The translations under genes and the position numbers were made by a program. The notes beneath the pieces are model-generated. The model saw only the letters and a list, made by a program, of their open reading frames with translations. It made no database searches and was not told where the DNA came from. From Streptomyces hygroscopicus (GTDB lineage Bacteria > Actinomycetota > Actinomycetes > Streptomycetales > Streptomycetaceae): a stretch of DNA of 64,000 nucleotides. Shown one piece after another: positions 5,371-7,220 of this stretch. Every line of letters begins with the position of its first letter. Within the stretch, counting starts at the first letter, position 1. Location: assembly GCA_002021875.1 (NCBI GenBank), contig CP018627.1:4650001-4714000 (forward strand), given 5' to 3'.

Positions 5371-5991
5371 CTACGGGGCCAGCCCGAGGGCGGGGAAGAC
5401 CGACGCCTCGAGGAAGCGCGTCAGGTAGTCGCGGTCGGCGAAGCGGCCCTCCAGCAGATGGCGGACCCGCATCGCGCCGATGAGCTGGGTGGGGACGAAC
5501 TCGACGGCGGGGTTGTCCGCGGCCACCTCGCCGCGCTCCACGCCCCGGCGGACCATCGCCTGGATCGTCTTCACCTCGTGCTCGATCAGCGCGGTGCGCA
5601 GCGCCTGGAGCAGATCGGGGTCCTGCAGCGCGGCGTGCCCAACGGCGTACACCAGCGCCGTGTCACCGCCGCACACCTCCCGCGCCTCCCCCACCGCCGC
5701 CGCGACGGCGCGCAGATCGCCCGCGAGGGAGCCGGTGTCGATGCCCTCCAGCGCGAAGGGGCGTTTGCACGAGCGCAGCGCGGCGACGACGAGCTGGGGC
5801 TTGCTGCACCACTGCCGGTAGAGGGTGGAGCGGCTGGCGCGGGTGCGGGCGGCGACCGCCTCGATGGTGAGGGCCTCGTAGCCGCCCTCCTGGAGCAGAT
5901 CGAGGACTGCCTGGTAGAACTCCTGCTCCCGCTCGGGGCTGATCTTGGAACGGCGCTGCGGCGCGGCCGTCCCCGGGCCTTGCGTCGCCAT
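5371..5991 (-). CDS. TetR-family transcriptional repressor
   Basis: 206 residues. The N-terminal helix-turn-helix includes LTIEAVAARTRASRSTLYRQW (about residues 40-60) and the C-terminal half is a TetR_C-type ligand domain. GGAGGAG sits just before the ATG at 5991. It is divergent from a DMT-family exporter, the usual layout for a local repressor of an efflux gene. The shared control region contains six evenly spaced GTACCGATAC-like elements (6038-6127), the obvious candidate binding sites, so autoregulation and repression of the exporter are likely. The inducer is unknown. Confidence 0.92.
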   Translation of the reverse strand: MATQGPGTAAPQRRSKISPEREQEFYQAVLDLLQEGGYEALTIEAVAARTRASRSTLYRQWCSKPQLVVAALRSCKRPFALEGIDTGSLAGDLRAVAAAVGEAREVCGGDTALVYAVGHAALQDPDLLQALRTALIEHEVKTIQAMVRRGVERGEVAADNPAVEFVPTQLIGAMRVRHLLEGRFADRDYLTRFLEASVFPALGLAP

Positions 5992-6037
5992 GGCTCTCCT
6001 CCTCGGTCACCGGACTCCGGCCCCCTGACCACGCAGT

Positions 6038-6127
6038 GTACCGACACATCGGCGTACCGATACACCCATGTACCGATACAGCTCAGAACCGGTACACTCT
6101 CGTATCGATACGTTTGTGTGCCGATGG
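6038..6127. promoter_or_regulatory. Array of six decameric operators with 16-bp period
   Basis: Decamers start at 6038, 6054, 6070, 6086, 6102 and 6118, exactly 16 bp apart: GTACCGACAC, GTACCGATAC, GTACCGATAC, GAACCGGTAC, GTATCGATAC and GTGCCGATGG. The ideal form GTAYCGRTAC is palindromic, and the fifth copy is perfect (CGTATCGATACG, 6101-6112). The 6-bp spacers are unrelated. The array fills the gap between the divergent TetR and transporter genes. Binding by that TetR is inferred. Confidence 0.8.
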
Positions 6128-6164: not shown

Positions 6165-7220
6165 ATGAACCCGACCGTCATAGCCGTCGCGCTCGCGCTC
6201 GCCTCGGCCGTCGCCTACGCGACCGCCGCGGTGGCCCAGGAGCGGCTGGCCGCCGGCGGGCGGCCGGGCCGTATGCCGGGACTGCTGCTGCGCGGCGCCT
6301 GGTGGGGTGCGGTCGGCCTCAACTCCACCGGTGCCCTGCTGCATGTGGCCGCGCTGCGGTACGGACCGCTCACCCTGGTCCAGCCGCTCGGCGCGCTGAC
6401 CCTGGTCGCGGCCGTCCCGCTGGGCGCGCGGCTCGCGGGGCGGCGGGTGGCCCGGAACGAGTGGCGGGGCGTGGCCCTCGCTCTGCTCGGCCTCGGCGCC
6501 CTGCTGCCGGTCACCGCCGGGGAGACCCCGCGCGACACGCTCAGCCTGCCGCAGGCGGTCGCGCTCGCGGGCGTCGTCCTGGCGTTCATCGGGCTGTGCG
6601 TCCGGCCGGGGCGCGGGGGGCGCGGGACGTCGGGCCGGGGTCTGCGGTACGCCACCGCGTCCGGGGTCGCCTCGGGCGTCGCCTCGGCGCTCACCCAGAC
6701 CCTCACCGTCGCGCTCGCCGGCTCCCACGCGCCCGGGGCGGCCCTGGTGTCCTGGCGGACGGTGATCGTGGCCGTCCTGGTCGCGGTCTTCGCGGTGAGC
6801 GGTCTGCTGCTGGCCCAGAGCGCCTACGGCAGCGGCCTCGGCGCACCCCTCGCCACCCTGACCCTCGCCAACCCGGTGGCGGCGGCCGCCATCGGGATCG
6901 TCCTGCTGGACGAGCGCTTCCGGGGCGGCCCGGCGGGCTGGGCCCTGGCCGCCGCCGGCGCGGCGGCGGCGGCCCGTGGCGTGGTCCTGCTCTCCCGGGC
7001 GCCCCAGGCGGGCGCGGACGTGCGCGGGGACGCCGTGGCCGTACGGGAGGCCGCCGCGACCGTACGGCGGGCCACCGCACGCGAGGCGGCCGTACCGGCG
7101 AGCCGCGCACCCGATGAGACCCTGCGCGAGCCCGCCGCCGTCCCCCGGGAACCCGTGCGGGAACCGGTTCGGGAACCCGTGCGCGAGTCGGCGCGGGAGC
7201 CGGTGCCCACGTCCCCGTGA
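6165..7220 (+). CDS. DMT (EamA/NIPA-like) membrane transporter
   Basis: 351 residues. The first roughly 285 form alternating hydrophobic helices, about nine or ten membrane segments, starting at VIAVALALASAVAYATAAVA and including LTLVQPLGALTLVAAVPLG and LATLTLANPVAAAAIGIVLL, as in drug/metabolite transporters. The ATG at 6165 follows GGAAGG. The last 60 residues are hydrophilic and built of REPV-type repeats, a cytosolic tail unusual for the family. Divergence from a TetR gene and the operator array suggest inducible efflux, perhaps of an antibiotic or metabolite. Confidence 0.85.
   Translation: MNPTVIAVALALASAVAYATAAVAQERLAAGGRPGRMPGLLLRGAWWGAVGLNSTGALLHVAALRYGPLTLVQPLGALTLVAAVPLGARLAGRRVARNEWRGVALALLGLGALLPVTAGETPRDTLSLPQAVALAGVVLAFIGLCVRPGRGGRGTSGRGLRYATASGVASGVASALTQTLTVALAGSHAPGAALVSWRTVIVAVLVAVFAVSGLLLAQSAYGSGLGAPLATLTLANPVAAAAIGIVLLDERFRGGPAGWALAAAGAAAAARGVVLLSRAPQAGADVRGDAVAVREAAATVRRATAREAAVPASRAPDETLREPAAVPREPVREPVREPVRESAREPVPTSP

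Follow-up and report, generated by a model that had tools for sequence, protein, structure and literature searches.

The 173-bp gap from which a TetR-family regulator gene and a transporter gene diverge in Streptomyces hygroscopicus contains evenly spaced sites that are probably bound by the adjacent TetR repressor, and the 16-bp rhythm of these sites is kept across many species of the genus. We consider it likely that the sites form a multi-dimer TetR operator, on which dimers would occupy alternating faces of the DNA and silence both divergent promoters. By sequence comparison, we established the repeat unit, its pitch, its placement between the two genes, its conservation, and its link to one clade of TetR proteins.

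The array and its flanking genes

The window, that is, the whole stretch of 64,000 nucleotides that was analysed, starts at G000:C1:4650001 of a 12.0-Mb genome. It contains the following features; the decamers, whose starts are 16 bp apart from 6038 to 6118, were scored against GTAYCGRTAC.

5371..5991, minus strand: TetR-family regulator gene (tetR), 206 aa, PF00440 and PF16859; presumed binder of the array
6165..7220, plus strand: DMT-family transporter gene, 351 aa, NF038012; presumed target
6035..6040, minus strand: TACACT, -10-like box facing tetR; putative promoter
6093..6098, plus strand: TACACT, -10-like box facing the exporter gene; putative promoter
6038: decamer 1, GTACCGACAC, 9/10
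6054 and 6070: decamers 2 and 3, both GTACCGATAC, 10/10 each
6086: decamer 4, GAACCGGTAC, 9/10
6102: decamer 5, GTATCGATAC, 10/10
6118: decamer 6, GTGCCGATGG, 7/10

The six decamers together matched GTAYCGRTAC at 55 of 60 positions, three of them perfectly, two with one mismatch, and the last at 7/10. This was the top six-site sum in the whole window, obtained at a step of 16, and sums at other steps from 10 to 30 did not exceed 41. When the 173-bp gap was resampled 5000 times with a first-order Markov model, the sum never reached 55 and was at most 36; resampling of the whole window (n = 30) gave a maximum of 34. The pattern TAYCGRTA-N8-TAYCGRTA matched 178 of 295 same-genus genomes and the reversed pattern none; a chance repeat was ruled out by the resampling and by this control. 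The initial annotation had described six such decamers at exact 16-bp steps, and this series is real and far above chance in position and step, but its sixth member looks like half a site. The spacers had been called unrelated in sequence, and all five in the window do differ from each other.

The TetR protein scored 38.9 bits with PF00440 (cut-off 24) and 70 bits with PF16859 (cut-off 32), and it carries the TetR_N domain of the family. Its AlphaFold model (pLDDT 85.7) is all-helical, with nine helices and an N-terminal helix-turn-helix, and matched TetR-family structures, among which the best-scoring solved DNA complex was Ms6564-DNA (ranks 2-4, TM-scores 0.63-0.74). The nearest named relatives, with 91-97% identity, were from Streptomyces species including S. 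violaceusniger and S. iranensis. The transporter scored 56.8 bits with NF038012, above the cut-off of 50; with PF05653, the NIPA magnesium transporter family, it scored 20.8 bits, below the cut-off of 26.2, and there was no other Pfam match. The protein is a presumed exporter. Its reading frame extends upstream without a stop codon across the array as far as a GTG at 6036 (394 aa), so that automatic annotation may place the transporter start inside the array. The two TACACT boxes of the window are 52 bp apart. Neither a -35 consensus nor a sigma-70-type promoter with a -35 element was found between 5980 and 6180, and a search for RNA elements gave no Rfam match at gathering scores between 5300 and 7300.

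Conservation of the array and its target genes

The array was compared over 147 loci with distinct TetR genes. Pattern searches contributed 35 of them, a set biased toward arrays, and a search with the TetR protein contributed the remaining 112 (30 selected automatically, 73 remaining from 80 hand-picked loci after de-duplication, and 9 named relatives). An array was counted when at least two decamers scoring at least 9/10 lay within one 16-bp register, and all counts are of related sequences, not of independent events. Relatives that keep the gene pair without the array had been named in the initial annotation as evidence against its reading; they did not undermine it, an array being present in 96 of the 112 protein-fetched loci (131 arrays over all 147). 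Successive decamers in the protein-fetched loci were 16 bp apart in 280 of 282 steps, the other two being 32 bp, and over all loci in 384 of 388, the others being 32 bp (twice), 6 bp, and 10 bp (once each). The step is therefore conserved in related genomes, as had been anticipated, and the proposal that neighbours lie on alternating helix faces agrees with the arithmetic, 16 bp being about 1.5 turns; coated DNA or a steep response, which that annotation also suggested, would be possible consequences. The 131 arrays consisted of 3 (16 arrays), 4 (71), 5 (29), 6 (9), 7 (4), 8 (1), or 9 (1) units.

Of the 16 array-less loci among the 112, 12 belonged to a separate branch, and the other 4 (L133, L145, L155, and L156) had a two-unit form, half-full-half, in which two units lie 16 bp apart. 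In the protein tree (midpoint root), a branch with support 100/99 separated these 12 loci from the arrays and the two-unit clade. When the presence of the TetR clade, taken as an E exponent of -58 or lower, was compared with the exact pattern in 150 genomes, 86 had both, 10 the TetR only, 2 the pattern only, and 52 neither, which upholds the earlier claim that the operator-like array is linked to the adjacent TetR gene. Eight of the TetR-only genomes had arrays at a looser threshold (G013, G014, G022, G079, G087, G091, G109, and G128); G006 had the two-unit form, and the best match in G060 was a separate-branch paralogue. The pattern-only genome G103 corresponds to array locus L157, the TetR of which was just under the E cut. 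In a class-wide draw, the pattern was found in 19 of 40 same-genus genomes and in 4 of 354 others, against 1 of 354 for the reversed pattern. None of the matching loci outside the genus (L061-L064) showed a TetR match at 1e-20, and with these counts an array beyond the genus was rejected.

A TACACT box facing the target was present at a fixed register position in 113 of the 131 arrays, and one facing tetR in 108; both boxes were present in 104. The gaps between the boxes of these 104 arrays were 20 (64 arrays), 36 (21), 52 (16), 68 (2), and 37 (1) bp, and hence 20+16k bp in 103 of 104. Divergent from tetR beyond the array, a PAP2 gene and the transporter gene were both present in 114 of 131 loci within the fetched stretches, the transporter only in 13 (the window's clade of 11, L087, and L166), PAP2 only in 2, and neither in 2. 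The intervening gene encodes a PAP2_3 protein (cut-off 27; two were tested and scored 153 and 152 bits). In the window's clade there is no PAP2_3 gene between tetR and the transporter gene, so that the transporter would now be directly under the array; PAP2_3 genes are present elsewhere in the window's genome. Beyond the array of L139, neither PAP2 nor a transporter was seen, and an open frame there resembles a Rieske-type oxygenase by eye.

The operator unit

The sequences indicate that the unit is an 18-bp element, CGRTAC-N6-GTAYCG, which is centred on the supposed spacer and shares its CG with the neighbouring unit. The step of the decamer series was right, but the natural unit is offset from the decamer by half a repeat. 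There are five units in the window, as follows.

6042..6059: unit 1, CGACAC-ATCGGC-GTACCG
6058..6075: unit 2, CGATAC-ACCCAT-GTACCG; exact unit in the genome pattern search
6074..6091: unit 3, CGATAC-AGCTCA-GAACCG
6090..6107: unit 4, CGGTAC-ACTCTC-GTATCG; exact unit, containing the exporter-facing TACACT
6106..6123: unit 5, CGATAC-GTTTGT-GTGCCG; the inner half of decamer 6 forms its right half, in keeping with the end rule given below
6038..6043: half-site GTACCG, which lacks a good partner; in most other clades, an additional unit on the TetR side has its right half at this position

The initial annotation took each GTAYCGRTAC decamer as one operator with its own dimer, six in the window. In the information profile, no palindrome is better conserved or easier to see than the decamer. 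However, at the next register position past the last good decamer, the inner half was better than the outer half in 91 of the 131 arrays on the TetR side (outer better in 7, 33 ties) and in 97 on the target side (outer better in 8, 26 ties). One step further out, the ratios of inner to outer were 57:40 on the TetR side and 44:47 on the target side. The 96 protein-fetched arrays gave 59:7 (30 ties) and 70:6 (20 ties), respectively, at the first position. Contrary to this end rule and in favour of the decamer, the first element of the window's clade, GTACCGACAC, is nearly complete as a decamer, and its outer half is kept better than its inner half. Coupling of A and G was stronger across spacers (odds ratio 70) than within decamers (2.1); among 388 half-site pairs across a spacer, 330 combined CGATAC with CGGTAC, 52 had two CGATAC, and 6 had two CGGTAC. 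When one unit was taken per distinct non-promoter spacer (mean spacer identity 0.36), 81 of 108 were mixed, with an odds ratio of 15. For T-to-A half-site changes, there was no pairing signal across spacers (odds ratio 0.90) or within decamers.

The array-less TetR relatives had CGNNAC-N6-GTNNCG in 13 of 16 loci (20 sites), the motif having been chosen after reading these sequences. They also had an N1 form, CGNNAC-N1-GTNNCG, in 10 of 16 loci (12 sites), and the remaining gap lengths between 0 and 20 yielded 3 sites in total; control stretches gave none. The N1 form, found upstream of the TetR relatives in L143, L146-L150, L152-L154, and L158, is five bases shorter than N6 and lies beside an N6 site in most of these loci; it is not accounted for by the N6-unit model and counts against it. 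Half-site centres are 12 bp apart in the N6 unit (about 41 A by arithmetic) and 5-7 bp apart within the decamer, which is too close for one dimer. For the recognition helices, distances of 37-38 A (QacR and CprB) and 31-32 A (TetR and SimR) are described (PMC4150764), and the 12-bp spacing would suit 37-38 A better than 5-7 bp would suit 31-32 A. The end rule, the coupling across spacers, and the N6 sites in array-less relatives thus contradict the decamer as the operator, and we regard that reading as improbable.

Residue 55 of the TetR protein, in the recognition helix, was Ser in most array proteins (127 of 131); the other four and all 16 array-less relatives had Ala there. The four Ala55 arrays share half-sites with their Ser55 sister arrays, so that recognition-helix covariation was weak, and it was set aside. 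An exact N6-unit search of the window's genome found only the array and one other place, G000:C1:4614982 (L168:2483), where CGATAC-N6-GTATCG lies at the start of an MFS gene next to another TetR_C_11 regulator. This place was rejected as a second target, as it more likely belongs to its own TetR_C_11 regulator; perhaps the same unit is used there once by another TetR. The three places matched by the exact unit, against two for the reversed pattern, were not significant, and since the reversed control also gave two matches, a lone unit means little.

Regulatory model and known TetR operators

In the multi-dimer model, which we consider likely, one TetR dimer would bind each 18-bp CGRTAC-N6-GTAYCG unit. 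Neighbouring units have a CG in common and are offset by 16 bp, or about 189 degrees, so that dimers would alternate between faces and could pack densely. The array spans both -10-like boxes, and bound protein would consequently silence the promoters of both tetR and the target, the latter being the DMT transporter gene here and the PAP2 gene plus the transporter gene in most relatives examined. We infer that TetR binds cooperatively, represses both promoters, and is released by a putative ligand. The missing -35 element, the lack of paired T-to-A changes across spacers, and the insignificance of a lone exact unit genome-wide count against the model.

It would also be conceivable, though we consider it very unlikely, that another regulator binds the array or that the array is mainly promoter DNA, tetR being a mere neighbour. 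This would suit the fixed register of the TACACT boxes within the array, and TetR binding is here a prediction from sequence. However, the array and the TetR clade co-occur in the 150 genomes, the array remains beside tetR where the first target gene differs, array-less paralogues share the N6 architecture with other half-site sequences, and up to nine units are not needed for two promoters.

Conservation is seen in the spacers of the two promoter-like units (ACTGGC in 81 and GCCAGT in 72 of all 651 spacers); apart from these, adjacent spacers resembled each other no more than random pairs did (identity 0.37 vs 0.38). Exact 16-bp unit duplications were found in 2 of 389 adjacent pairs (L118 and L160). 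The earlier statement that spacing and not copying is what is kept thus holds for the spacers, which are mostly unrelated, but not for these duplications or for the conserved promoter-unit spacers. The exact tandem copies in L160 and L118 point to recent gain or loss of a unit. The array of L160 is one unit longer than that of L003, and the TetR proteins are identical over the compared part. The exact duplications suggest that arrays can grow by copying, after which the spacers would drift while the lattice stays. That the array is simply a tandem repeat enlarged through 16-bp duplications, with only one or two units relevant to regulation, would agree with these duplications and with the variable unit number but is hardly credible, since spacers near random in identity beside constant half-sites and pitch point to selection on the units.

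The multi-dimer reading agrees in several respects with known systems. QacR, CgmR, CprB, and Ms6564 are described as binding with two TetR dimers on opposite DNA sides of operators of 22-32 bp, with about 180 degrees between the dimers of Ms6564 (PMC4150764). As in QacR, CprB, and Ms6564, there is room here for at least two dimers on opposite sides, as judged by sequence only; a two-unit stretch is 34 bp long, compared with 22-32 bp in those four systems, and whereas these have two dimers, the arrays here have 3-9 predicted units on a single lattice. EthR of Mycobacterium tuberculosis is reported to form a cooperative octamer on a 55-bp operator (PMC9210681) with direct and inverted repeats, in contrast to the regular 16-bp lattice here, on which cooperativity would be expected. 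EthR is a different TetR protein from that of the array and was not among the PDB sequence matches of the latter under its name. DarR is described as a dimer-of-dimers on overlapping palindromes in a 20-bp operator, with the dimers in direct contact (PMC10636190); the units read from the array overlap likewise, and their neighbouring dimers may or may not touch. The divergent TetR SCO7222 has three repeats of TGGAACGNCGTTCCA and forms three shifted complexes (PMC3511530), and the sites of this and other Streptomyces multi-operator TetRs are described as separate 15-bp palindromes, at most three, of different sequence. The 173-bp gap fits the 200-bp rule given in the same source for the intergenic DNA of TetR targets. 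BldC of Streptomyces forms cooperative multimers on repeats (PMC5859096), as is proposed here, but is a MerR-like protein on direct repeats and not a TetR. No description of such an array was found among the full-text literature matches listed, which covered few subscription journals.

The array is genuine and represents an unusually long form of a known switch type, that of the multi-dimer TetR operators of QacR, Ms6564, and EthR. The TetR operators compared here, as described, take one or two dimers, or the EthR octamer, whereas this array has 3-9 units on a rigid lattice. A more tentative reading, possible but in our view somewhat doubtful, is that 3-9 dimers form a continuous two-row TetR sheath, that species tune steepness or leak by whole 16-bp units, and that the mostly asymmetric units tend to point away from each other, toward the promoters; if true, nature would have provided a length series of one operator. 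Provided that the units are occupied jointly, comparing species that differ in unit number would test how operator number and helical phase determine how sharply a repressor switch responds and how much it leaks. The palindrome that stands out most in a promoter may be not the operator but two abutting half-sites of neighbouring dimers.
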